Shown here in pieces: positions 4,979 to 63,061 of a DNA stretch of 64,000 bases. The translations under genes and the position numbers were made by a program. Position 1 is the first letter of the stretch. Each line of letters opens with the position of its first letter. The notes below the pieces were generated by a model. That model was given only the letters and a program-made list of their open reading frames with translations, was not told the DNA's origin and searched no databases. The DNA is taken from positions 1 to 64,000 of the forward strand of contig JHYJ01000013.1 of assembly GCA_000621425.1 (NCBI GenBank), read 5' to 3'. The DNA comes from Lachnospiraceae bacterium AB2028. Lineage in GTDB: Bacteria; Bacillota; Clostridia; Lachnospirales; Lachnospiraceae.

Positions 4979-5914
4979 ATGGGAAAGACAGCATTTATCT
5001 TCCCTGGTCAGGGGGCACAGTATCCCGGCATGGGAAAGGATTTTTTCGAAAAATACGAAGAGGCGCAGGAGATATTCAAAAAGTCTTCCGAGGCTACAGG
5101 ACTGGATCTTGAGGCTCTCTGCTTCAGCGAAAATGATGAGCTGAACCAGACAGAGTATACACAGATTGCCATGATCACTGCAGAGCTTGCCATGTGGAAA
5201 GTTGTAACTGCAAAGGGTATCAAGGCTGATGTGTGTGCGGGCTTAAGCCTTGGCGAGTATGCGGCTCTTGCTGCATCAGGTGTTATGGAGCCGGCAGATA
5301 TTTTCCCTGTAGTTCGTAAGCGCGGAATATATATGCAGAACGCTTATCCTAACGGCGGCGGCATGACGGCAGTACTGGGGCTTTCGCCTGAGCAGGCAGA
5401 CGCAGCCTGCAAAAAGATAGCTGACGAGACAGGCAAGCCTGTATCAGTTGCAAACTACAACTGCCCCGGCCAGATAGTTATCACCGGCGCAAAAGAAGCT
5501 GTGGACAAGGCAGCTGAGGAGTGCCAGGCAGCCGGCGCAAAGCGCTGTGTTCCTTTAAATGTAAGCGGTCCCTTCCATTCAGAGCTCCTTAAGGAAGCGT
5601 CTGAACTCTTGGCAAAAGAGCTGGAGCAGGTAAACATTTCCGATCCCCGGATCCCTTACATTACGAATGTGACAGCTGAGCCTGTTACAAAGGCAGACGG
5701 AATAAAGGAGCTCCTTGCGGCGCAGATCTGCTCGCCTGTTAAGTGGCAGCAGAGCGTTGAGAAAATGATCGCTGACGGAGTGGACTGTTTCATAGAGATC
5801 GGCCCAGGCAAGACATTAGCAGGATTTATGAAGCGTATTAATAAAGAAGCAAAGGTCTTCAATGTTGGTACTGTTGAAGAATTAGATAAGTTATTGGAGG
5901 AACTTGGATGTTAA
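4979..5914 (+). CDS. fabD: Malonyl-CoA:ACP transacylase
   Basis: The 311-residue product has FPGQGAQYPGMG near the N-terminus and the nucleophile motif GLSLGEY with Ser at about residue 90. GPFHSELL supplies the catalytic His near 199. It moves malonyl groups from CoA to ACP. GGAGGAAAC directly precedes the ATG. Its last codons overlap the fabG start by 7 bases (ATGTTAA), showing translational coupling. Confidence 0.95.
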   Translation: MGKTAFIFPGQGAQYPGMGKDFFEKYEEAQEIFKKSSEATGLDLEALCFSENDELNQTEYTQIAMITAELAMWKVVTAKGIKADVCAGLSLGEYAALAASGVMEPADIFPVVRKRGIYMQNAYPNGGGMTAVLGLSPEQADAACKKIADETGKPVSVANYNCPGQIVITGAKEAVDKAAEECQAAGAKRCVPLNVSGPFHSELLKEASELLAKELEQVNISDPRIPYITNVTAEPVTKADGIKELLAAQICSPVKWQQSVEKMIADGVDCFIEIGPGKTLAGFMKRINKEAKVFNVGTVEELDKLLEELGC

Positions 5915-50033: not shown

Positions 50034-50927
50034 GTGTTTGTAAAAGATATGGGAAAAAAAAGAATATTTTTCATCGTTATGACGGTGGTATTCATAATGA
50101 TGGCAGTAGTCGGAGCGGTTATCTTTGTATCAAGGTGGAACAATAATCGCCGGGCAAATATGGAATATTCGCAGTTGGAGGAAGATGTTAATCCGTCAGT
50201 AATCGCTACTGATGCACCGGATGAGGTGCCGGATGAGCTACCGGATGAATTGCCGGATACGCATCAAGAGAGTGATGACAGCGGACTGTTTGATGATAAA
50301 GAAGAAAGCGATGATTTTCAGGGCGAGATTCCGGTAAAAGAAATAGATTGGGAAGCCCTTCATGAGAAAAATGAAGATATTTATGCATGGATCTTCGTGC
50401 CTGATACAAAGGTGGATTACCCGGTCCTTCAGGACCCGGATGATCCGGCGTATTACCTTAATCACAATATCGACGGCAGCAAAGGTCTGCCTGGGTGTAT
50501 ATACACGGAAAATTATAATAAAAAAGACTTTTCCGATCCTAATACCGTAATATATGGGCATAATATGAAAAACGGAACGATGTTTGCATCGCTCCACAGT
50601 CTGGAAAAAACAGAGCTTACAAAGGAAGATCATTATTTTTATATTTATACGGAGGATAGTACATATACATACCTGATATTTGCTGTTTATGAATTTCCTG
50701 CAAGACACTTGTTGCTGAATTATGATCTGGAAAATGAATATGTATATGAACAGTATCAGCAGGATATACTGAATGGTTTCGAAACCAGGCCCGGGGGCGT
50801 GAATAATATACGAGAAGATATTGAGCTTGACAGCGATGATAGGATGGTTACACTGTCTACCTGCGTAAGAGATGGCAATAAATCATATCGATTTCTTGTT
50901 GCAGGAAAACTCATGGCAGTTGAGTAG
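50034..50927 (+). CDS. Class B sortase
   Basis: The product is 297 residues from GTG 50034, or 292 from ATG 50049; neither has a strong ribosome-binding site. An N-terminal membrane anchor spans about 10-35. An acidic linker with a repeated PDELPDELPD-like stretch follows, then the sortase barrel. DYPVLQDPDDPAYYLNHNIDG and YGHNMKNGTMFASL (catalytic His176) are class B features. TLSTCV holds Cys277 and Arg286 completes the site. It anchors secreted proteins to the wall. The gene two places downstream encodes a protein ending in SPQTG, the kind of motif clostridial SrtB enzymes accept. Confidence 0.92.
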   Translation: MFVKDMGKKRIFFIVMTVVFIMMAVVGAVIFVSRWNNNRRANMEYSQLEEDVNPSVIATDAPDEVPDELPDELPDTHQESDDSGLFDDKEESDDFQGEIPVKEIDWEALHEKNEDIYAWIFVPDTKVDYPVLQDPDDPAYYLNHNIDGSKGLPGCIYTENYNKKDFSDPNTVIYGHNMKNGTMFASLHSLEKTELTKEDHYFYIYTEDSTYTYLIFAVYEFPARHLLLNYDLENEYVYEQYQQDILNGFETRPGGVNNIREDIELDSDDRMVTLSTCVRDGNKSYRFLVAGKLMAVE

Positions 50928-50969: not shown

Positions 50970-52064
50970 ATGCTTGAAAAAGAGGAAACAATAGAAAAAA
51001 AGAAAACAGGAATTGTCGTGCGTTTGATGATTACCCTGTTGCTGATGGTGTCTGTGTTAGCTGGGATAGTTGTTGTACTCCGGGTGTTAGGTAGGGAAAA
51101 CGTCATGACGGCAGTAGCCGGAAGTGATGAACTGATTGCACAGCTTGGTGAACAGCCATCTTCAAATAGTGCAGCAACCCTGCAGGAAGGTCACATACTT
51201 TATAACGGTCAAGAGTATGCACTTAATGAAGATATTATTACTATTCTTGTAATGGGAATAGACAAGGAAACCGTGAATGAAATCGGCGGACAAAGCTGGT
51301 CTTCTGACGAGGATGAATATCAAGGCGGACAGGCGGACGCACTATTTCTAGTGATTATAAATCCGCATGATGAGAGTATCAAAGTAGTTGCAATAAATCG
51401 AAATGCCATGACTGATGTTGATGTATGGGGAGCAGATGGAAGATATGATGGTGTCTATACAAAACAGGTAGCATTACAGCATGGATATGGAGATGGCGGA
51501 CCCAAAAGCTGTGAGCATCAGGTGAAGTGTGTATCCAGGATGTTTCACGGAATAAAAATAAATGCATATGCAGCCATAAGTATGGATGCTGTTCCGGAGC
51601 TTAATGATGCAGTTGGCGGGGTGACACTGGATGTGCTGGAGGATATCGTGTATCCGGAGTACGATATGGATCTCCATAAAGGTGATAAGGTAACGTTGCA
51701 GGGAAAAAAGGCGTATTGGTACGTGCGGCTCAGAGATGAGAATGCATTTGGATCCAATGAACAACGTCTTATGCGGCAAAAACAATATCTGACTGCTTTT
51801 GTATCTACGGCCAAAAAACAATCCATGTCTGATGTAAGGGTGGCTGTAACTATGTACCAAACGATGCAGAAGTATATGGTAACGGATATAGACATTAGTA
51901 GTTTTACGTATCTTGCAACAGAATATATGGGATATGAGTTTGATGACGAACATATATATACATTAAAGGGTGAAACAATTATGGGTAGTCAGTTTGAGGA
52001 GTTCTATATAGATGAGAATGAGTTGGAAGATATGATCGTTGAATTGTTTTTTGAGCCTGTATGA
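50970..52064 (+). CDS. LytR-CpsA-Psr family wall-polymer ligase
   Basis: The 364-residue product has one membrane helix (about 15-42) and an outside LCP domain. ADALFLVIINPHDESIKVVAINRNAM contains the Asp and Arg region that binds the polyprenyl pyrophosphate. INAYAAISMDAVPELNDAVGGVTLDV and YWYVRLRDENAFGSNEQRLMRQKQYL follow as in the family. LCP proteins transfer wall teichoic acid or capsule to peptidoglycan, which fits the polysaccharide cluster downstream. The start ATG lacks a clear Shine-Dalgarno sequence. NRNAM replaces the more usual PRD of the family. Confidence 0.85.
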   Translation: MLEKEETIEKKKTGIVVRLMITLLLMVSVLAGIVVVLRVLGRENVMTAVAGSDELIAQLGEQPSSNSAATLQEGHILYNGQEYALNEDIITILVMGIDKETVNEIGGQSWSSDEDEYQGGQADALFLVIINPHDESIKVVAINRNAMTDVDVWGADGRYDGVYTKQVALQHGYGDGGPKSCEHQVKCVSRMFHGIKINAYAAISMDAVPELNDAVGGVTLDVLEDIVYPEYDMDLHKGDKVTLQGKKAYWYVRLRDENAFGSNEQRLMRQKQYLTAFVSTAKKQSMSDVRVAVTMYQTMQKYMVTDIDISSFTYLATEYMGYEFDDEHIYTLKGETIMGSQFEEFYIDENELEDMIVELFFEPV

Positions 52065-52149: not shown

Positions 52150-52848
52150 ATGAAAAAGAAAGCATTGGCATTATTGTTTGCGCTCGTTCTTGCCATCGGG
52201 ACTACAATGACTGTTTATGCAGACAGCCCTGCAGTTGGTACCACTGAGCAGCCTGTAGAAACACAGGAGGCATCTACGACGGTTGAACAGAGCAAAACCA
52301 CAGATGAGTATGCAAAAACTACGGTTACGACATCTGAATTTGTTATTGCTAAAGTGAGTGACACAACTGTACAGTCAGCAGGTGTAGCAACTCAGAATCT
52401 GGTATTGAATGATCTGGAAAAAACCGGAACATTGCTTGGCCGGTCAGATATAACTGTAGCAGCAAGTGATCCTAATGCTGTTGTAAAAGCAACAATACTG
52501 ACAACTGTTGATGTCAGTCCCAAAACAGCAGTAAAGGATGCAGATGGATACTATAATGTAACTGTTGGAGTCGATTCCGTTAAAGAAGGTGATGCTATAG
52601 TTGTACTCCATTATACCGGAAGCGGCTGGGAGGTTATAGTGCCTGGTGCTGTTGCGAATGGATCTGTATTCTTCAAAACTAAAAACCTGTCTCCTATTAG
52701 TATAGTAAAGATTTCGGTTACTACTGCCCAGGCTGAAGTTCCTTCACCACAGACAGGGGAAAGCGTACCGTATGCGATCATAATAATGATGATCGTAGGT
52801 TGTGCAGGTGCTGCTGTTTGCGGTAACTTATCCAGAAAAAAGAAGTAA
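52150..52848 (+). CDS. Sortase-anchored surface protein (SPQTG)
   Basis: The 232-residue product has a signal peptide (about 1-25, cleavage after VYA) and a Thr-rich segment. One compact beta-rich domain (about 75-185: VVLHYTGSGWEVIVPGAV) follows, then SPQTG at 199-203, a hydrophobic helix and a final RKKK. This is a complete cell-wall sorting signal with SPxTG instead of LPxTG, the type used by clostridial class B sortases. It is probably the substrate of the sortase encoded 1.2 kb upstream. AAGGAGGAAAA precedes the ATG. Function of the domain unknown. Confidence 0.85.
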   Translation: MKKKALALLFALVLAIGTTMTVYADSPAVGTTEQPVETQEASTTVEQSKTTDEYAKTTVTTSEFVIAKVSDTTVQSAGVATQNLVLNDLEKTGTLLGRSDITVAASDPNAVVKATILTTVDVSPKTAVKDADGYYNVTVGVDSVKEGDAIVVLHYTGSGWEVIVPGAVANGSVFFKTKNLSPISIVKISVTTAQAEVPSPQTGESVPYAIIIMMIVGCAGAAVCGNLSRKKK

Positions 52849-52857
52849 TTGCCCGGT

Positions 52858-54048
52858 ATGACGAATGACAGTGGTGGGATAAACAAAGTTCTGATAGTAA
52901 CAGTAATCAGTGGATTTCTGCCGCAGTTTGAGTATAATGACGTAAAGTTATTACAGAAAATGGGATGTGAAGTGCATTACGCATCAAATTTCACGAATCC
53001 TGTCTACCGTTGTAACGAAAAGGAATTGCTTGATGCGGGAATACACATTCATAGGCTTACGGTGGAAAAAAGTCCGATGAAGGTGCTTGATAATTTACGG
53101 ACTGTCAGGGATCTAATACATATTATAGATCGTGAAAAGATACGTTTTATTCACTGCCACAATCCAATGGGCGGGGTGACAGCAAGGCTGGCGGCCTGGC
53201 TGAGTAGGCAGAAACCCTATGTGCTATACACCGCTCATGGTCTGCATTTTTATAAAGGGGCTCCTTTTTTTAACAGGATAATTTACTATCCTGCTGAGTG
53301 GTTGTTTGCAAATCTTACTGATGCAATGATCACTATAAACGAGGAAGATTATAGGAATGCAGGAAAACTGCCGTTACGAAGAAAAAATCATGTAATGCGA
53401 ATACATGGTGTGGGTGTGGACGATAAAGTATACCGTCCGCATAGAGAGATTGCAGCGGCAAAAAGAAAAGAATTGGGAATACCGGAAAATGCGGTGCACA
53501 TAGTGACCGCTGCGGAACTGAATGATAATAAAAATCAGAGCGTGGTGATAGAGGCTCTTGCCAAGCTGAATGATAAAAATATCTATTATAGTATATGCGG
53601 CAGAGGCAAGGATGCACATAAGCTACAGTGTTTGATTCGGGAAAAGGGGCTTGAAGACAGAGTAAGATTGACCGGATACAGATATGATATGGCTGATGTG
53701 CTGCAATGTGCCGATATATTTGCTTTTCCATCAAAAAGAGAAGGTTTAGGAGTAGCGGCAGTAGAGGCTTTGCTTTGTGGAATCCCGCTTATAGTTGCGG
53801 ACAACAGGGGTACACGCGAATATGCAAGAAACGGGGTTAATGCGATAGTTTGCAGGTCCGGAAAAGCAGAGGAATATGCATCTGCTATAGGCAGAATGGC
53901 ACATGACGAAAAGCTTAGAAAAAAATTTGCCGGAAGATGTCGCGACTCTGCAGCGGAATTTACGCTGAAAGAGGTGGAAAAAAGCATGAAGAGGATATAT
54001 GGTAAGACACTCAGGGAGGCGGGAGTGTCAGTTTTGAGGAGGGGATGA
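52858..54048 (+). CDS. Glycosyltransferase family 4
   Basis: The product is about 396 residues. The N-terminal half binds acceptor (FLPQFEYNDVKLLQKMG, then HCHNPMGGVTARLAA and YTAHGLHFYKG). The C-terminal half has the nucleotide-sugar site FAFPSKREGLGVAAVEALLCGIPLI with the Glu-x7-Glu pattern. GT4 retaining enzymes use GDP- or UDP-sugars; similar proteins act in exopolysaccharide operons. Translation starts at ATG 52858 or TTG 52849, just after the previous stop. It overlaps the next gene by 4 bases. Confidence 0.9.
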   Translation: MTNDSGGINKVLIVTVISGFLPQFEYNDVKLLQKMGCEVHYASNFTNPVYRCNEKELLDAGIHIHRLTVEKSPMKVLDNLRTVRDLIHIIDREKIRFIHCHNPMGGVTARLAAWLSRQKPYVLYTAHGLHFYKGAPFFNRIIYYPAEWLFANLTDAMITINEEDYRNAGKLPLRRKNHVMRIHGVGVDDKVYRPHREIAAAKRKELGIPENAVHIVTAAELNDNKNQSVVIEALAKLNDKNIYYSICGRGKDAHKLQCLIREKGLEDRVRLTGYRYDMADVLQCADIFAFPSKREGLGVAAVEALLCGIPLIVADNRGTREYARNGVNAIVCRSGKAEEYASAIGRMAHDEKLRKKFAGRCRDSAAEFTLKEVEKSMKRIYGKTLREAGVSVLRRG

Positions 54049-54992
54049 AAAACGTGCACAGACCTTTGATATCCGTAATAATGGGTGTTCATAATCCGAA
54101 GGACCGAAATGTGCTTTATAGTGCGGTTCAGTCTGTTTTGGATCAGAGTTATGATAATTTTGAATTCATTATATGGAATGACGGCTCTGATGCTGATACT
54201 GTATGTTTTTTAAATGATCTGCCCAAAATGGATGATAGGATATTTCTTGCCGGACTCAATGTAAACAGAGGTCTGGCTTTTTCTTTGAATGAGTGTATTC
54301 GTCTGGCAAAGGGAAAGTATATTGCAAGAATGGATGCAGATGATTTTTCGCTGCCTGACAGGCTGGCAGAACAGGTGGCTTTTCTTGAGGAGCATCCGGA
54401 ATACAGCTGGTGCGGATGTGCTGCTGAATTGTTTGATGAAGAAGGAATATGGGGATTCAGAAGGATGCCGTTGGAACCAAAACCGACGGATTACTATCGT
54501 TATTCACCTTATATACATCCGTCTGTCATGTTCAGGGCGGAAGTTTTCGATGAAACAAAAGGATATCTTGAAACAGAAGAAACCCTTCGTTGTGAGGATT
54601 ATGAGATATTCATGCGGCTTACACAGCGGGGACTTAAAGGATATAATCTCCAGGATGCGCTTTTCTGTTATCGCGAAAATAGGGAATCTTATGCAAAAAG
54701 AAAGATGTGTTACAGAATCAATGAAATGAAGATGCGTTTTTACGGTTATAAACAGATGGGGATCATATTTCCATTTGGCTGGATTTACGCATTGAGGCCG
54801 GTGGCGGCAGGCTTGTTTCCACCTGCGCTGCTGGGGATGCTAAAGCGCAAAGAGGGAGCAGCATTTTTGAGAATGCGCGATTCGGAGGAAAAAGATTGTG
54901 AACGACAGGGCAGAGTACACGGAACGTATGAAGTATTATCAAAAGTGCCTGAAGGAAATTCCTGTCTTACGTATGGCGTCAGAGCGTGCTGA
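54045..54992 (+). CDS. Glycosyltransferase family 2
   Basis: The 315-residue product has the GT-A fold: ISVIMGVHNPKDRNVLYSAVQSVLDQSY, then WNDGSDADT, the metal-binding ARMDADD (DxD) and CEDYEIFMRL. This is an inverting enzyme of the AmsE/capsule type. The ATG overlaps the previous stop (ATGA), showing coupling. The last 95 bases are shared with the next gene in another frame, an unusually long overlap. Confidence 0.88.
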   Translation: MKNVHRPLISVIMGVHNPKDRNVLYSAVQSVLDQSYDNFEFIIWNDGSDADTVCFLNDLPKMDDRIFLAGLNVNRGLAFSLNECIRLAKGKYIARMDADDFSLPDRLAEQVAFLEEHPEYSWCGCAAELFDEEGIWGFRRMPLEPKPTDYYRYSPYIHPSVMFRAEVFDETKGYLETEETLRCEDYEIFMRLTQRGLKGYNLQDALFCYRENRESYAKRKMCYRINEMKMRFYGYKQMGIIFPFGWIYALRPVAAGLFPPALLGMLKRKEGAAFLRMRDSEEKDCERQGRVHGTYEVLSKVPEGNSCLTYGVRAC

Positions 54993-56259
54993 TGTTATTG
55001 ATATCGGAGATGAAAACGAAGAGATATTTATTGCTGTTTACGCCCCGGTAATTACTCTTTTTGCTGAGCATACACTTCTAAGCGCAAAAGAAAGAGGCAT
55101 AGAACGTTTATACTTCCTGGCACGTGACGGATGGCTGATATATCTGGCTGCGCGTGAACTGGAAAAAAAACTGAATACAGGTGTGGAATTAAAGTATTTG
55201 AATGTCTCAAGATATGCATTGCGGCTGGCTGAATACAGTTTGCCGGAAACAGATGTTGAGAGTTTGATATGTATGGGGGGGATGACGGTTACTTTTGAAT
55301 CCCTTATGAGACGCGGAGCACTTTCGGATGAAGAAACAGCAGATATTTCCGATAGAACAGGTTATAAAGGAAGAGAAAAGGAAATTCTGTCATATAAAAA
55401 AATAAGGGAACTGTGTGCTACATTGCGGAATGTTCCGCAGTTTTCAAAGTATGTTAAGACACATTCACAGAAGTCGATAGGAAATACACTGGACTACCTT
55501 AAGCAGGAGGGCTTGTGTGATGATCTTAAATATGCAGTTGTGGACAGCGGATGGATAGGAACTGTTCAGAGAAGCATAGGAAGGTTGACGGCTGCGGCAA
55601 ACAATCCCAAAGACTTTGAAGGGTATTATTTTGGTATGTATGACCTGCCGATTGGAGTTGATCTTGATAGGTATAATGCTTATTATATTCGGCCGGGGTG
55701 TAATATAAAACGCAGGTCATCGTTTTGTATTTGTTTATTTGAAGCCGTATGTTCTTCTGCAGATGGGATGACGTTAGGATATGAAAAAGATGAATCGGGA
55801 CATACCTATGCCGTAAAAGGCCCAAATAATCCGAACTTTGAGATAATAAATAAGAATGAAAAAGTATTTTTAAGATACCTTTCTGAGATTGAAATATCAG
55901 ATGAATTTGACTTAGGAAAAGCGTTAAGACTGAGCGAGAACATTCTTTCAAAGCATATGGGCAATCCTTGTTTAAGAGAGGCTGAATTGTATGGGGGTCT
56001 TCAGTTCAGTGATGATGTATTTGAGAAAGAAATGCAGGATGTGGCAGTATTGTGGAATCGTACTGACATACATAACAACAATGTCATTAACAAAGTCCTT
56101 ACTAAGTGTTCGTTAGGCAGCAGTCTGCCAAGGCCGAGCGGATGGCCTGAAGGAAGTATTGTCAGATGTATGAAGGAAAAGTCAGGTCTCTCATTATGGC
56201 ACGAGAGGACATATAAAAAGCTTGCTTATATGGGAAAGGCAACATTTTATCATGGATGA
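54898..56259 (+). CDS. HAD-associated FLARDG-family protein of polysaccharide clusters
   Basis: The 453-residue product starts at GTG 54898, because CGGAGGAAAAAG stands just upstream inside the previous gene. IERLYFLARDGWLIYLAA and LKYLNVSRYALRL match the second part of large HAD-like proteins found in capsule operons. In those the first part carries the nucleophile motif SFDxFDTL; that part is absent here. It may therefore be a non-catalytic domain or a partner of another HAD protein. Soluble, no signal peptide. Exact role unknown. Confidence 0.6.
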   Translation: MNDRAEYTERMKYYQKCLKEIPVLRMASERADVIDIGDENEEIFIAVYAPVITLFAEHTLLSAKERGIERLYFLARDGWLIYLAARELEKKLNTGVELKYLNVSRYALRLAEYSLPETDVESLICMGGMTVTFESLMRRGALSDEETADISDRTGYKGREKEILSYKKIRELCATLRNVPQFSKYVKTHSQKSIGNTLDYLKQEGLCDDLKYAVVDSGWIGTVQRSIGRLTAAANNPKDFEGYYFGMYDLPIGVDLDRYNAYYIRPGCNIKRRSSFCICLFEAVCSSADGMTLGYEKDESGHTYAVKGPNNPNFEIINKNEKVFLRYLSEIEISDEFDLGKALRLSENILSKHMGNPCLREAELYGGLQFSDDVFEKEMQDVAVLWNRTDIHNNNVINKVLTKCSLGSSLPRPSGWPEGSIVRCMKEKSGLSLWHERTYKKLAYMGKATFYHG

Positions 56260-57073
56260 GAAAAAAGAGGGGCAGGAAAATGAGAAACTGAAAACAGAAA
56301 AAAACGGCCGCGGAGGACTGTGGCAGTATTTTTTTGTAATACACGAACTTACGTTAAGAGAAATCAAACGTAAATATGCCAGGAGTGCATTGGGAATACT
56401 ATGGAGTGTTCTTAATCCGCTCATGACCATGGTTGTAATGTCACTGATCTTTTCCACAATGTTCAGTAGAAGTATAGAAAATTTCCCCATATATTATCTT
56501 ACGGGACAGATATTCTGGACACTTTTTTCCACTGCTACCAATCAGTCAATGACCGCTTTGGTGGACAATAAGAACTTGTTAATAAAAGTTAAGCTTCCAA
56601 AACAGACTTTTGTTCTTTCCAGAATATACACGGCTCTGGTGAATTTTACATACACGAGCATAGCGTATTTGTTTATGCTTGCTGTTTTCAAAGTAACACC
56701 TAATGTTACTATGTTGTTATTTTTTGTGGATGTAATATTTATGCTGATCTTTTCGACGGGTATAGGATATATTCTGTCGATTGAGTTTGTTTTCTTTGCA
56801 GATATCAAGTATCTTTATGGAGTATTTTTGACACTGCTTATGTATATGTCGGCAATTTTTTATCCGGTTGACGGATTGTCGGAGTGGATGCAGAAGGTTA
56901 TAAGCTTTAATCCCATATATTCAATGATCGCTTTCGCAAGAGAATGTGTAATGTACGGAAGGATACCGGATGAGAGCATCTGGATAAATATAGTAGCATG
57001 GAGTACGGTTAGCATTGTTTCAGGCATGGTAGTTTTCAGGCTCAATGAAAACAAGGTGATGCAGAAAATATGA
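56252..57073 (+). CDS. Polysaccharide ABC-2 exporter permease (Wzm/TagG-like)
   Basis: The 273-residue permease has six helices. The N-terminal [24 protein letters not shown] is the hallmark of O-antigen/teichoic-acid exporters. [21 protein letters not shown] and [23 protein letters not shown] follow, and [23 protein letters not shown] lies near the end. It moves lipid-linked glycan across the membrane with the ATPase encoded next, whose ATG overlaps its stop. ATG 56252 overlaps the preceding stop. Confidence 0.9.
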
Positions 57074-58914
57074 AGAGTGTTAAAAGAAAAATCAATGTTC
57101 TCATTTTGCCTCTGATCATAGTTCTGCTTTTACCTATGTGGGTTCGTGCAGATGATGCGTCGGTAGTGCTTGGATCAAACTGGTATGAACGGAAAATTGG
57201 TTCTTCTTTTTTGGTGGGAGTATATTTAAAGACTCCGAAGGGAGCTGGGAAATATACAGTAACGTTCTCCTATGATACAGATCTGCTTGAATATGATAGC
57301 GGTGCTTCGTCTGTTGACAAGAAGCGCGGAAGAGTGACCCTTAGTGGATATGGCAACGGAAGCAAAAAAGAAGGTATATATGTACGATTTAAGGCGATAA
57401 AGGCCGGAGAGGGAACCATAGCTATTGAGAGTGCTGAGGTGCATCTTCCTGCGGGTGCCAATGGAGAAGATGCCGGTACATATAATATTGTAAGTTTAAG
57501 CTCATCTCCTTTGGTCATAATAGATCCTGATAATCCGCCTACGCCAACGGCAACTCCAACCCCGAAGCCAACAGCAACACCAACGGCAACTCCAACCCCA
57601 ACTCCAACAGCTACGCCCACGGCGACACCAACAGCCACTCCTACACCAACAGCTACTCCGACTCCGACAGCTACGTCTACACCGACGCCCACTGCAACGC
57701 CGACGGCTGCGCCGACAGCAACACCAACCCCAACTCCGGCAGTTACGGCAACACCAACGGCAACACCAACGGCTACGCCCACAGCGACGTCAACGCCTAC
57801 GCCTACATCCGCTGCAGCAATAGATACGAATATTGCGAGTCCAACGGCTGAACCATCAGTAACTCCGTCACCGACTCCGACAGCGGCGACGGAACCAACA
57901 GAAAAGCCCTTTGTATATAACATATATTTTGTGGGTATCGTCGGGATCATTTTATTGATCATAATAGGCGAACTGATACATCTGGCTGCGAAGAAGATAA
58001 TAGAACACAGTACAAACGGTGATATAAGGAAACTCTTTGGAAACGGAAAAACCGATTCCCAGCTGCCGGCTGATGTTAACATACTGGATCTTGATGTAAA
58101 CAGCGAGACGAGTCCTGAACTGCACAGAATGATAGAGCAGGTCCATTGGGAAAAAAAGGGTGTAACGGAGCCTGTCATTTCTGTTAATGATGTGACAATG
58201 GAATTCCATCTGTCATCATCAAATCCTTCGGGAATAAAAGATTATCTTATACAGTTTCTTAAGCGGAAGATAAAATACAGAAGACTGTATGCATTGTATC
58301 ATGTGAGCTTTGATGTATATCCCGGAGAGGTAGTAGGCATTATAGGCACGAATGGATCCGGTAAGTCCACGCTGCTCAAGATCGTATCAGGAGCATTAAA
58401 GCCTACAAAGGGTACCGTGAAAGTGGACCGAAAAAAGGTACAGCTACTGACACTGGGAACAGGTTTTGATATGGAGCTGACCGCCAGGGAAAATGTATAT
58501 CTCAACGGGGCGATAATAGGATATTCCAAGAGTTTTCTTGATCAGCACTATCAGGATATCGTGGAATTTGCCGAATTACAGGATTTTATGGAGGAAAAGG
58601 TAAAGAACTTTTCCAGCGGTATGGTATCGCGCCTTGGATTTGCAATCGCTACCGCAGGATCAGCTGCTGAGATACTGATACTTGATGAGGTTCTCAGTGT
58701 AGGTGATGAGTTCTTCAGAAAAAAAAGCCTACAGCGTATAAAGGAGCTCATACACGGTGGCAGTACCGTGCTTATGGTTAGTCATGGAATGGGAACCATA
58801 CTTGATAATTGCAGCAAATGCGTTTGGATCGAAAAAGGTGAGCTAAAGATGATCGGTGATCCTAAAAATGTGTGCGAAGCATATAGAAAGTATGGGGGAG
58901 AAGGGAATAATTAG
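57070..58914 (+). CDS. Secreted cohesin-like domain - TP linker - TM - Wzt-type ATPase fusion
   Basis: This 614-residue protein joins parts that normally occur on opposite sides of the membrane. Residues 1-27 form a signal peptide (cleavage after VRA). Residues from about 30 to 151 are a beta-sandwich like cohesin/CBM-type modules ([30 protein letters not shown]). Residues 157-278 are a Thr-Pro-Ala linker. A membrane helix spans about 283-303 ([15 protein letters not shown]). Residues 368-614 are a polysaccharide-exporter ATPase: Walker [10 protein letters not shown] (426-434), signature FSSGMVSR, Walker [10 protein letters not shown], switch His572. The topology is consistent: domain outside, ATPase inside. 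The usual C-terminal glycan-binding domain of Wzt is absent. The frame is continuous. Confidence 0.9.
57538..57815 (+). repeat. Thr-Pro-Ala codon repeat tract
   Basis: Six-base-pattern repeats (ACN CCN, with GCN codons mixed in) encode the linker of the fusion protein. Codon third positions vary from unit to unit, so the tract is maintained for its protein sequence rather than being a fresh slippage product. The opposite strand is open by composition only. Confidence 0.85.
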
Positions 58915-58925
58915 GAAAGAAAATT

Positions 58926-60149
58926 ATGAACGATAAAACAGAAATGAATCACATCCCAAAGGTTTCAGTTATCATTCCGGTCTATAATGAAGAAAAATAT
59001 CTGAGACAGTGTATGGACAACATTATAAGTCAAACACTGAGAGATATAGAAATAATATGTATAGATGATGGTTCAACAGACGATTCGTTTAGAATACTGC
59101 AGGAATACGAAAAAAAAGATTCCAGGGTATTAGTGATAAGGGAGGAGAATAAAGGTGCCGGTGCGGCAAGGAACACAGGAATACAGAAGGCAGGGGGACG
59201 TTATCTGTATTTTCCGGATGCAGATGATTATTGCGAACCATCTTTATTGGAGATTGCCTATAAAAAAGCAGAGGATACGGAGGCTGATGTTACGGTTTTC
59301 AGATCGAGACAGATTGACGTGGAAACCGGAAAAAGCAGTCCATGTCGGTATTCTGTATATATAGATAAACTTCCGGCTAAATGCCCATTTCAAATAAGTG
59401 ATGTACAAGGAAATTTTTTCCGCTTTATTATGGGATGGGCCTGGGATAAATTGTTTAGAAAAAGTTTCATAGAGACAAATAATATTCTGTTTCAAGAACA
59501 AAGGACTACCAATGACATGTATTTTACCTACACTGCATTGATGAAAGCCCAAAGAATAACTACGCTTGATACAGAATTATATAATCATAGAATAAATATA
59601 ACCGCATCGTTGTCTATGACAAGAAATGATTCATTCAGATGTTTTTATGATGCTTTGATAAAAGTGCAGGATGAAATTAAGAAAATGGGACTGGAAGATA
59701 AATACCGTCAGGTATTTGTTGATTATGCGCTGCATTGTTGTCTGGCAAATTTGAATGTGCTGGATGGAGATTCGGCCAGGGAATTACATGGCTTACTAAA
59801 TTCAGAGTATTTTAGAGAATTAGGAATTTATGACGCACCTTCGGAATGGTTTACATCTTCGAATGAGTATTCGGAATATTTGATCATAATAGATGAAAAG
59901 GAAGGCTATGATGGATATGAAAAGTATCATCTACGGCAAATGCTTATAAGTTCAAAAAAAGAAAATGAATTATTAAAGAAGGAAATTACAGATATTCGTG
60001 AAGAAAATAAAAAATTGGAAGGTATACAAGCAGAAAGAGATCACTATAAGTATTGCCTTGATGAAGTGTGGAAGTCAAAATCGTTAAAAATCGGAAGAGC
60101 AATAACATGGATACCGAGAAAAATAAGCGGAAAGGAACAAAACTCATGA
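58926..60149 (+). CDS. Glycosyltransferase family 2 with coiled-coil tail
   Basis: The 407-residue product has VSVIIPVYNEEKYLRQCMDN, ICIDDGSTDDS, GAGAARNTGI and FPDADDYCEP (DxD metal site) as in GT2 enzymes. A helical coiled coil follows (about 335-380). The C-terminal tail is YCLDEVWKSKSLKIGRAI-TWIPRKI. The same tail ends the next protein. It starts 11 bases after the ATPase gene. Donor and acceptor unknown. Confidence 0.88.
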   Translation: MNDKTEMNHIPKVSVIIPVYNEEKYLRQCMDNIISQTLRDIEIICIDDGSTDDSFRILQEYEKKDSRVLVIREENKGAGAARNTGIQKAGGRYLYFPDADDYCEPSLLEIAYKKAEDTEADVTVFRSRQIDVETGKSSPCRYSVYIDKLPAKCPFQISDVQGNFFRFIMGWAWDKLFRKSFIETNNILFQEQRTTNDMYFTYTALMKAQRITTLDTELYNHRINITASLSMTRNDSFRCFYDALIKVQDEIKKMGLEDKYRQVFVDYALHCCLANLNVLDGDSARELHGLLNSEYFRELGIYDAPSEWFTSSNEYSEYLIIIDEKEGYDGYEKYHLRQMLISSKKENELLKKEITDIREENKKLEGIQAERDHYKYCLDEVWKSKSLKIGRAITWIPRKISGKEQNS

Positions 60150-63061
60150 TGGGGGATATGGCAAAATTTGATGAGCAGATAGAACTTGCTATGATATGTG
60201 ATGCGAATTACATGATACCTACTATGGTGGCTATTTATTCGCTGTTTTGCAATAGAAATGTTCAAAGGTCTTATCATATATCTGTTATATGTAGTGAGGG
60301 TGAGTTAGTTGAACTTAAACCATTATGTTCATTTAATACTACAGGGTTCGAAGTGAGCATAATAGAAGCAAGTAGGGACAGAATACAAAATCTGTCTAAA
60401 AGTACTGGTAAAAGTTATGCAATGGCAACGGAAAACGCATTGTATAAGATAGTCTTACCGGAATTGTTGATCAATATATCAAAAGTGTTATATATCGATG
60501 GAGATATAATTGTCAAAAAAAATATTGATGAGTTATATCTAATGGATGTCTCTGATTGTTGCGGCGTTGTTGTAAAGGACAGCGGCAAGTTATATTCAAA
60601 TAGGAAGATTGTTAGAAAAAAGGATAATTATTTTAATACCGGGGTTATGCTCCTGAATTTAGATAAAATGAGAGGATATACTGAAAAACTTATAGAAGAA
60701 AAAATGACGCAGGAAGACTGTACGCTAATGGATCAGGACGTGTTTAACAGTGTGATAGGGGATATGATCAAGACTGTTGATAATAGATACAACCTGTTGT
60801 ACACAAATCTGACCCGCTCCAGAGCAAAGTTTACAATGGACCGATTGAATGATTTTTATGGATATCAATATAAAAACCTGCGTGATTTGTATGAAGATGC
60901 ATGTATTGTTCATTTTGCATCCAAAGATAAACCATGGAAGAATACATCATCTCCCATGTCACGCATTTGGTATAAGTATTATCAGGAAATGAAAAAGGAA
61001 TTAAATCCTAATGAGAATTATATTCAGGAATTCGAGAGTAAAAAGCAAAAGGATACCGCATTACATAATTGTTTGACAGGGAAGACTAACATTGCAGATA
61101 GAAACTTGATTGTATCGTTTACGACCTATCCAGGTAGAATAGAGTTGTTAACAAAGATGATTAATTCATTGTTATCACAAATAGAAATTCCGGATAAGAT
61201 AGTCGTTGCGTTGACAAAAGAGGAATTTCAAAATGGAGAAAGCGATCTGCCTAATGAAATAAAGGATCTAGTTGCATTGGGAAAACTGGAAATAATTTGG
61301 GGTGAAAGAAATCTCAAGTCACATAATAAGTATTTTTATACTATGAAAAAATATCCCAATGACATAGTTATCACTGTGGATGATGATAATGTTTATTCTG
61401 AAGAATTGACCTGGTATTTGTATCAGTCATATATGAAATGCCCGGATAGTGTGTCGACAATGAGGGCGCATTTTATCGAATTTGAAAATGAAAAGATTAA
61501 AAAGTATGTCTGTTGGAAACAAGAGTTGGAAGCGCCGGTATTTCAGCCGGAAATGAGTTTTCTGGCAACCGGTGTTGCCGGGTGCCTATATCCACCAAAT
61601 TCAATGCACACGGATCTGTTTAACGATGAGCTGATGATGAAGTTGTGCCCTACAACAGATGATTTATGGTTGAAAATAATGCAGATCAGGGTAGGAACAT
61701 CTGTGGCTATAGCATATCCAAACATGGAATTGGGAATTATTAAAGAAACCCAAAAAACAGCATTATACAGGCTAAATAGACAGGGTGGTGGAAATGATAA
61801 TAATCTGAAAAGTGTGTTGGATCATTATAGTGATGAAAAGCTTGAGGAAAAACTGTTTAGGAAGTTTGAATCCATATCAGAAGAAGTATATCAACCGATT
61901 ATATCTGTTGTACTGGCTGTATGTGATAATAAGGCTAGTATAAGAAAGTGCATTGAAAGTCTTATCAGACAGACATTAAAGAATGTGGAAATCATAATTG
62001 TTGATAACGGTTCAAAATCAAAGATACTTAACGAGTTTGCTACCAAGCATTCTAATATAGAGCTGATAATAAATAAAAAATACAATGCTGCCGAAGCTGC
62101 GAACAGGGGGATGCTGGAAGCAAAAGGCAAGTATATATTATTTGCGGATTCAAATACATGTTATGAATTGGATTATTTAAAAAAGGCGTATTACAACATT
62201 AGTAAAGGCGATGCAGATGTTCTGATTGCCAAGGTTGATTATCATAACGGTGATGGGGGACTCTGCAAAAAAAAAGGTTGGGATAAAGAAATGTATCTAT
62301 TGCCCAAAGAAATCGTTTTTTCTTTTGATGATATAAAAAAAGATAGGTTCAATACAATATCATACAGATATGATGACAAGCTTTTCAGACGAGAACATAT
62401 AATCAAGTATTCTTTTGATACTAATATGAATTTATATGGGGATATGATGTGTATTGAGAAGTCTATACTGGAGGCAGAACGTTTATCTTATTATGACTGT
62501 GTGGTTGGTCACGCACTGTATGTCTCCGATAATCCACATTATAAGAAATTCCCATGGGAAGGGGTAAAGAAGAGCATGGAGACTTTTGGGGAATACTTGC
62601 AATGCGATTTGGGGTATCAAAAATACTATAATGATTACAGGTTCTTTATTTTGGCTACTATTTTCAGAGAATATGATCTGATAGATGATCTGGGATATGC
62701 AGAAAAAAGGTATGGTCAGATACGCGAAGATATTGAATATTTTGGAATTGATGAGTCTCTAAATGAATTAAAATCAAATGATGATTTGTATAAGGAGTAT
62801 CTGTTCGTTATGTCATTTGATTTCCCGAGGGAGATGATAAAAAAGTATATACATTTGGATGATAGCAGATGGCAAAATTCTAAAGAGTCTATTGAAATAA
62901 AACAGAAGGAAATAGAAGAAAAAAATCATATAATCAAGCAATTGAGTTATGACAGCTATTGTTTAAATGAGATAAGGAAATCTAAAAGCTATAAAATCGG
63001 GTTGTTTATAACTGCCGTTCCAAGGAAAATTATACTGATGATGAAAAAAAATAAAGGATAA
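60146..63061 (+). CDS. Three-domain glycosyltransferase (GT8 - GT-like - GT2)
   Basis: The product is about 971 residues from ATG 60146, which overlaps the previous stop (ATGA) and follows AAAGGA; two in-frame starts upstream (60068 GTG, 60107 ATG) are possible. Residues from about 10 to 290 are GT8-like (YMIPTMVAIYSLF, VLYIDGDIIVKKN with DxD, YFNTGVMLLNL). Residues from about 335 to 600 form a second transferase-like domain (IVSFTTYPGRIELLTKMINS, VITVDDDNVY). Residues from about 610 to 800 are GT2-like (ISVVLAVCDNKASIRK, IIVDNGS). The GT2-like part has FADSNTC where DxD is expected, so it may be inactive. A coiled coil and the KSKSYKIG-PRKI tail close it. Confidence 0.82.
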   Translation: MMGDMAKFDEQIELAMICDANYMIPTMVAIYSLFCNRNVQRSYHISVICSEGELVELKPLCSFNTTGFEVSIIEASRDRIQNLSKSTGKSYAMATENALYKIVLPELLINISKVLYIDGDIIVKKNIDELYLMDVSDCCGVVVKDSGKLYSNRKIVRKKDNYFNTGVMLLNLDKMRGYTEKLIEEKMTQEDCTLMDQDVFNSVIGDMIKTVDNRYNLLYTNLTRSRAKFTMDRLNDFYGYQYKNLRDLYEDACIVHFASKDKPWKNTSSPMSRIWYKYYQEMKKELNPNENYIQEFESKKQKDTALHNCLTGKTNIADRNLIVSFTTYPGRIELLTKMINSLLSQIEIPDKIVVALTKEEFQNGESDLPNEIKDLVALGKLEIIWGERNLKSHNKYFYTMKKYPNDIVITVDDDNVYSEELTWYLYQSYMKCPDSVSTMRAHFIEFENEKIKKYVCWKQELEAPVFQPEMSFLATGVAGCLYPPNSMHTDLFNDELMMKLCPTTDDLWLKIMQIRVGTSVAIAYPNMELGIIKETQKTALYRLNRQGGGNDNNLKSVLDHYSDEKLEEKLFRKFESISEEVYQPIISVVLAVCDNKASIRKCIESLIRQTLKNVEIIIVDNGSKSKILNEFATKHSNIELIINKKYNAAEAANRGMLEAKGKYILFADSNTCYELDYLKKAYYNISKGDADVLIAKVDYHNGDGGLCKKKGWDKEMYLLPKEIVFSFDDIKKDRFNTISYRYDDKLFRREHIIKYSFDTNMNLYGDMMCIEKSILEAERLSYYDCVVGHALYVSDNPHYKKFPWEGVKKSMETFGEYLQCDLGYQKYYNDYRFFILATIFREYDLIDDLGYAEKRYGQIREDIEYFGIDESLNELKSNDDLYKEYLFVMSFDFPREMIKKYIHLDDSRWQNSKESIEIKQKEIEEKNHIIKQLSYDSYCLNEIRKSKSYKIGLFITAVPRKIILMMKKNKG

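Follow-up and report, generated by a model that had tools for sequence, protein, structure and literature searches.

A predicted extracellular cohesin-fold domain on the ATPase of a Wzm/Wzt-type glycan exporter in Lachnospiraceae

Why should the ATPase of a glycan exporter begin with a signal peptide and carry, ahead of its transmembrane (TM) helix, a domain apparently destined for the outside of the cell? The question arose from a 64,000-nucleotide stretch of the genome of Lachnospiraceae bacterium AB2028 (positions 1 to 64,000 of contig JHYJ01000013.1, hereafter the window), in which the frame at 57070-58914 of the forward strand encodes 614 amino acids with no internal stop. Its ATG start overlaps the 3' end of the open reading frame of a Wzm-like permease by 4 bp, and its product comprises, in this order, a signal peptide, a cohesin-fold domain, a Thr/Pro/Ala linker, a TM helix and a Wzt/TagH-type ATPase (Table 1). 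A first-pass annotation made from the sequence had described both this unbroken frame and its position directly after the permease, and both are borne out here, with a linker of ~130 residues. Computation identifies the fusion protein as the ATPase subunit of an ABC exporter of the Wzm/Wzt (TagGH) type, encoded within a locus for a surface glycan: the ATPase domain scores 79.6 bits against PF00005 (cut-off 25), and its Walker A motif is invariant across nine aligned proteins. TagH is the best NCBIfam model for it, yet at 177.7 bits against an equivalog cut-off of 320. The domain extends to residue ~608 of 614, and there is thus no C-terminal extension and no C-terminal carbohydrate-binding domain.

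Table 1. Parts of the fusion protein and neighbouring genes in the window
Feature	Position	Strand	Basis
Sortase, class B-like	50034..50927	+	PF04203; TIGR03064 144.1 bits, below equivalog cut-off 153.75
LCP family glycopolymer transferase	50970..52064	+	PF03816 and TIGR00350, both above cut-off
Small secreted protein, SPQTG-type C-terminus (sortase substrate by appearance)	52150..52848	+	Sequence; present in part of the loci
GT4 glycosyltransferase	52849..54048	+	PF00534; conserved
GT2-type glycosyltransferase	54045..54992	+	Similar to the window GT2 at 58926; conserved
Conserved 453-aa enzyme, no Pfam/NCBIfam match	54898..56259	+	Fold match to 8a0m, 7shg
ABC-2 (Wzm-like) permease; start probably downstream of the listed TTG	56222..57073	+	PF01061 1.2e-13, 51.5 bits vs 26.9
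Signal-peptide-like segment, residues 1-27 (probable cleavage after VRA)	57070..57150	+	Hydropathy peak 7-25
Cohesin-fold ectodomain, residues 28-151	57151..57522	+	AlphaFold pLDDT 91.2; Foldseek and VIA best matches cohesins
Thr/Pro/Ala-rich stalk, residues about 152-281 (~130 aa)	57523..57912	+	Sequence; not conserved in relatives
TM helix, residues 285-303	57922..57978	+	Hydropathy 2.77 and charge count
Variable juxtamembrane segment, presumably cytoplasmic	57979..58167	+	Alignment of relatives
Wzt/TagH-type ATPase domain, residues about 367-608; Walker motif listing to 423-434	58168..58893	+	PF00005, NCBIfam, alignment
GT2 glycosyltransferase	58926..60149	+	PF00535
GT8 + GT2 glycosyltransferase	60068..63061	+	PF01501, PF00535

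The topology predicted from these parts places the ectodomain outside the membrane and the ATPase inside. This placement, already proposed in the first-pass annotation, is predicted from the signal peptide, which is probably cleaved after VRA, and from the one strong helix, both found by hydropathy. An N-terminal hydrophobic segment is found in 17 of 18 distinct fused proteins (absent from L049). Lysine and arginine residues number 1 in the 20 residues before the helix and 4 in the 20 after it; in a charge count on hydropathy-based topology they are more frequent after the helix in six of eight proteins checked and equal in two. The linker codons show synonymous variation at Thr, Pro and Ala, and the underlying DNA repeats are imperfect.

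A structure model of the ectodomain, built from an alignment of ten sequences, reached a mean pLDDT of 91.2 with AlphaFold. Foldseek returned as its best match the cohesin-like module 2jh2 of Clostridium perfringens (E 4.8e-7), and 46 of the 50 best matches listed carry cohesin or scaffoldin titles. In VIA comparisons the model aligned with 2w1n, from C. perfringens NagJ, at Z 14.4 and rmsd 2.2 over 119 residues, followed by 2jh2 (Z 14.3), 2vo8 (Z 13.9) and other cohesins at 12.8 and below. Searched with a profile, the PDB sequences yielded 14 matches at E<=10 (best E 0.0036), 13 of them cohesin-bearing by their titles and the shared NagJ name, the exception being 8wc1; the single ectodomain sequence found no cohesin among the same sequences, and its PF00963 score of 16.2 bits lies below the Pfam cut-off of 24.1. 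The cohesin-like domain of the first-pass annotation therefore stands by fold and falls short by Pfam score, and on the strength of the model we are confident in predicting a cohesin jelly-roll fold. The closest solved folds are the C. perfringens cohesin-like modules (NagJ 2jh2 and 2w1n, GH33 2vo8; Z 13.9-14.4, rmsd 2.0-2.2 over 117-119 residues, 16-20% identity), which belong to glycoside hydrolases, whereas the Lachnospiraceae domain belongs to a membrane exporter. Cohesins are protein-docking modules.

A search for the same fusion beside permease genes in other Lachnospiraceae, together with same-genus genomes, yielded 18 distinct fused proteins after removal of duplicates, the window's included: 17 in Lachnospiraceae and one in a 'Clostridia' MAG. 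Bacteria of both gut and rumen are among the carriers. The very protein of the window is also encoded by G003, a genome of the same genus, and by the Lachnospiraceae locus L028. The linkers of the relatives are wholly different (T/P-rich, Glu-rich, coiled-coil-like or Gly/Glu-rich), and since the fusion recurs with such unrelated linkers we rejected a misassembly or a frame error in the linker; the two outcomes that would have undone the first-pass proposal, misassembly and a gene pair normally separate, were looked for in related genomes and recurrence of the fusion was found instead. Across nine relatives (alignment A2), identity to the window protein is 28-38% for the N-terminal part and 73-89% for the ATPase.

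The distribution of the fusion is patchy, and the ectodomain is often absent. Surveying 397 genomes of the family, we recovered the ATPase subfamily (E<=1e-85) in 27, of which 10 have the fusion, 4 a TM segment only, 12 neither and 1 a fusion to the permease. The 16 loci of one search comprise eight with a continuous fusion (L027-L032, L037, L038), one whose two halves are separated by an in-frame stop (L033), one with ATPase and TM segment only (L036), three with an ATPase without ectodomain (L034, L035, L039) and three other matches (L040-L042). One fused protein (L049/L089) begins directly at the ectodomain, without a signal peptide; it lies near 7074 of L089, right after the permease, in G395, the only dockerin-bearing genome of the 13 that bear fusions. 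Beyond the family, the subfamily (E<=1e-80) was found in 5 of 391 genomes of the class, namely that of the window and four from other families, in which frames of 261-300 aa lack the ectodomain. On the ATPase tree the fusion is scattered, supported branches requiring at least 6 changes, or perhaps one fewer given that L033 was scored 'none'; a quick domain tree is compatible with a single origin, gains and losses not being separable. A further arrangement occurs in G075 (L015/L097, G075:C223), where an ectodomain and a TM helix sit on the N-terminus of a Wzm-like permease and not on the ATPase. Though a single case on a 3.9-kb contig, it indicates that the ectodomain belongs to the exporter as a whole and is not tied to its ATPase. 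We also considered relocation of the ectodomain to a separate gene in the genomes with TM-only ATPases and rejected it: the domain profile had no match at E<=0.01 in any of the four (G457, G191, G291, G058).

Where the ectodomain is present, substitution patterns show purifying selection at the sequence level, with dN/dS of 0.16 (L012/L014), 0.13 (L029/L037) and 0.04 (L031/L033), the last two with dS exceeding 1. For the linker, two pairs yield values of 0.35-0.44. Two further pairs had no usable value, the domain being identical in L029/L030 and dS saturated in L032/L029. In the L029/L030 pair the ectodomain DNA is identical (dS 0), the linker has dS 0.13 and the ATPase dS 0.21, a pattern that suggests recombination at the ectodomain.

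We then compared the gene neighborhoods of the ATPase in 34 loci, two of which are duplicates and some short. A permease relative is found in all 34; the GT4 and GT2 genes occur in 32 (absent from L038 and L097), as does the conserved 453-aa enzyme (absent from L038 and L100). The permease usually precedes the ATPase, the order being inverted in L082, L083 and L088. Two different permease genes lie beside the ATPase gene in L038, L083 and L088, which suggests a heterodimeric membrane part there. The sortase, LCP and SPQTG genes are grouped upstream in the window and in L027, L029-L033, L037 and L089. The model of the 453-aa enzyme (pLDDT 86) matches a capsular polysaccharide synthesis multienzyme (8a0m, E 2e-9) and a polysaccharide ribofuranosyl transferase (7shg, E 7e-8), and based on these fold matches the exported polymer may contain ribofuranose; a HAD label for this enzyme would be no more than a guess from a motif. 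In L032 a relative of the enzyme and the permease share one open frame (ORF at 5631, 759 aa). The window's genome encodes a second exporter ATPase, 43% identical (L002, G000:C5:190894-191607), with a 244-aa C-terminal extension that we take to resemble that of Wzt, and two unfused ATPases of the subfamily (L052 in G149, L053 in G478) have C-terminal tails of 80 and 131 aa whose repeats presumably resemble wall-binding, glycan-binding ones.

How does this architecture relate to known exporters? The first-pass annotation knew of no described system with such a layout, but for the Bacillus subtilis wall teichoic acid exporter TagGH, AlphaFold prediction has been described to show an ATPase continuing into a TM helix and then an SH3b-like domain outside the cell (PMC11466899). 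The general layout of an exporter ATPase with a predicted ectodomain is thus already described for TagH, and the likeness is close: a type V exporter whose ATPase is joined through one TM helix to a predicted extracellular, wall-facing domain on a linker. The TagH extension is C-terminal and SH3b-like, whereas that of Lachnospiraceae is N-terminal, of cohesin fold and provided with a signal peptide (PMC11466899). A TarGH homologue is described, in the part of the source available, without mention of such an extracellular domain (PMC7078476). The Wzm/Wzt O-antigen exporters with a carbohydrate-binding domain (PMC9445017) likewise combine an ABC-2 permease and an ATPase within a glycan locus; they carry a C-terminal domain, whereas the window ATPase has none and bears its extra domain at the N-terminus, predicted outside. 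In the titles, abstract openings and passages that searches of the open-licence PMC literature brought up, we saw no description of the fusion, of an extension at the N-terminus of such an ATPase, of a signal peptide or cohesin fold on it, or of a switch to the permease.

If the domain docks a protein, its genomic neighbors may name the partner. An LCP gene occurs in 13 of 16 distinct fused loci as against 4 of 14 unfused ones (Fisher p 0.005, kinship ignored); for this count L033 was taken as fused, and four loci were dropped: L038 for its short flank, L094 and L095 because they duplicate L031 and L037, and L097 as the permease fusion on a 3.9-kb contig. A tree-aware test of fusion against LCP had 5 independent pairs on supported branches, too few to weigh either way; on average 1.5 went the same way and 0.1 the other. 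The fetched flanks of the fused loci L090, L091 and L093 hold no LCP gene, and LCP genes are present without the ectodomain in L034 (none) and in L036, L081 and L083 (TM only).

Profile matches to the domain occur in 164 of the 397 family genomes (E<=1e-5), and we examined stand-alone relatives, which have the same cohesin-like domain without an ATPase, in 75 loci from 74 genomes; these are mostly high-scoring rows, with some skipped, and not a random sample, and several lie at contig ends, where neighbors can be missed. A C-terminal TM helix was present in 14 of 15 checked (L130-L144), and most of the 75 carry other domains or tails. An LCP gene, called with our own HMM from nine seeds, lies within 5 kb in 23 of the 75 loci and is the next upstream gene in 19, against an expectation of about 0.8 derived from 242 PF03816 matches in 100 genomes; 20 of the 23 cluster in a single branch of the domain tree, which has 27 rows and support 80, so that the binomial figure overstates their independence. 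The LCP gene lies directly upstream of the cohesin-type gene, with a gap of 0-209 bp, in L141, L143, L144, L147, L154-L156, L159 and L166, and likewise in L168, L177, L179, L181, L192 and L194-L198. In the domain tree, the smallest supported set around the window's domain has 29 rows. It takes in all 18 ATPase fusions and the one on the permease; three LCP-associated stand-alone proteins (L134, L138, L139), four dockerin-associated ones and three others make up the rest. The three LCP-associated proteins, among the domains nearest the fusions, all come from sortase/LCP loci.

A dockerin-like partner had been suggested in the first-pass annotation. The window's genome has no PF00404 match at E<=0.001, and at E<=1 a single one (0.42) in a 26-aa frame with stops; dockerins occur in one of 12 other fusion-bearing genomes (G395), as against 4 of 14 further genomes examined. 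The next upstream gene has a strict dockerin motif in eight of the 75 stand-alone loci, and eight more upstream genes look dockerin-like on inspection; PF00404 confirmed two of these (G184, G077). Stand-alone cohesin-type genes directly follow genes for dockerin or dockerin-like proteins in L135, L164, L142, L146, L161, L169, L171, L178, L180, L187 and others, and no cellulosome context was seen at these loci. A dockerin partner for the fusion ectodomain appears unlikely from these sequence searches.

The ectodomain would be an add-on to transport and not part of the motor, given the many subfamily members without it. We propose, tentatively and with a confidence just short of even, that it would serve for docking at the point where the polymer leaves the exporter: displayed outside, it would hold nearby a partner in the cell envelope, most likely the LCP glycan ligase of the same locus or else another secreted wall protein, and the lipid-linked polymer could be handed to the wall while still emerging. 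A transporter with two ATPases would display two such ectodomains. We count in favor of this docking role the recurrence in 18 proteins, the permease fusion, the cohesin fold, the purifying selection, the LCP neighborhoods and the TagH precedent, and against it the tree-aware test with its few pairs, the crowding of most LCP neighbors of stand-alone relatives into one branch, the dockerin-associated members of the tree, the fused loci without LCP, the loci with LCP but no ectodomain, L049 and the frequent absence of the ectodomain.

The main rival to docking is capture of the polymer itself, with the ectodomain as the outside counterpart of the cytoplasmic C-terminal carbohydrate-binding domain of Wzt, where it would ratchet or chaperone the chain on its way out. 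Polymer capture and the sensing of export were both raised in the first-pass annotation, and either may hold. The missing C-terminal domain of the window ATPase would fit, as would the tails that the unfused L052 and L053 carry instead, if these bind glycans as we presume from their look, and the much faster divergence of the N-terminal part relative to the ATPase is what a substrate reader should display. However, the fold is that of a protein-docking family, and elsewhere related domains are encoded next to LCP genes or to dockerin-bearing proteins; we regard polymer capture as rather unlikely, though a contender of some weight. The ectodomain might alternatively grip a wall-anchored protein such as the SPQTG sortase substrate and so fix the exporter in place, a tethering to which we give a small chance: the stalk is probably long enough to reach the wall and the sortase, LCP and SPQTG genes stand together upstream in the loci named above, but the SPQTG gene was not found in the fused loci L088, L090-L093 and L096 and is present in the TM-only loci L036, L081 and L083.

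A classical cohesin docking a dockerin-bearing protein is suggested by the dockerin genes right upstream of stand-alone cohesin proteins; with no dockerin in the window's genome and fewer in fusion-bearing genomes than in the others, we consider it very unlikely for the fusion. Finally, an accidental gene fusion with no outside function would account for the frequent absences, the TM-only forms, the in-frame stop of L033 and the missing signal peptide of L049, but 18 distinct proteins, low dN/dS on the ectodomain and the separate fusion to the permease make it highly improbable.

To our knowledge, it is poorly understood how Gram-positive bacteria hand lipid-linked wall polymers over from exporter to ligase, and a docking-type domain naturally fused to an exporter, variable among close relatives and once found on the permease, offers a ready system in which to study it. 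Together with TagH of B. subtilis, the present fusions suggest a common purpose for outside domains on exporter ATPases. It is conceivable, though in our estimate doubtful, that Lachnospiraceae glycan exporters have their own outside docking platform coupling export to wall attachment, in effect an exporter-ligase unit, and that Bacilli reached the same solution separately, using another fold attached at the opposite end of the ATPase. If this were true, ectodomain-bearing exporter ATPases would represent a recurrent design and not an oddity of B. subtilis.
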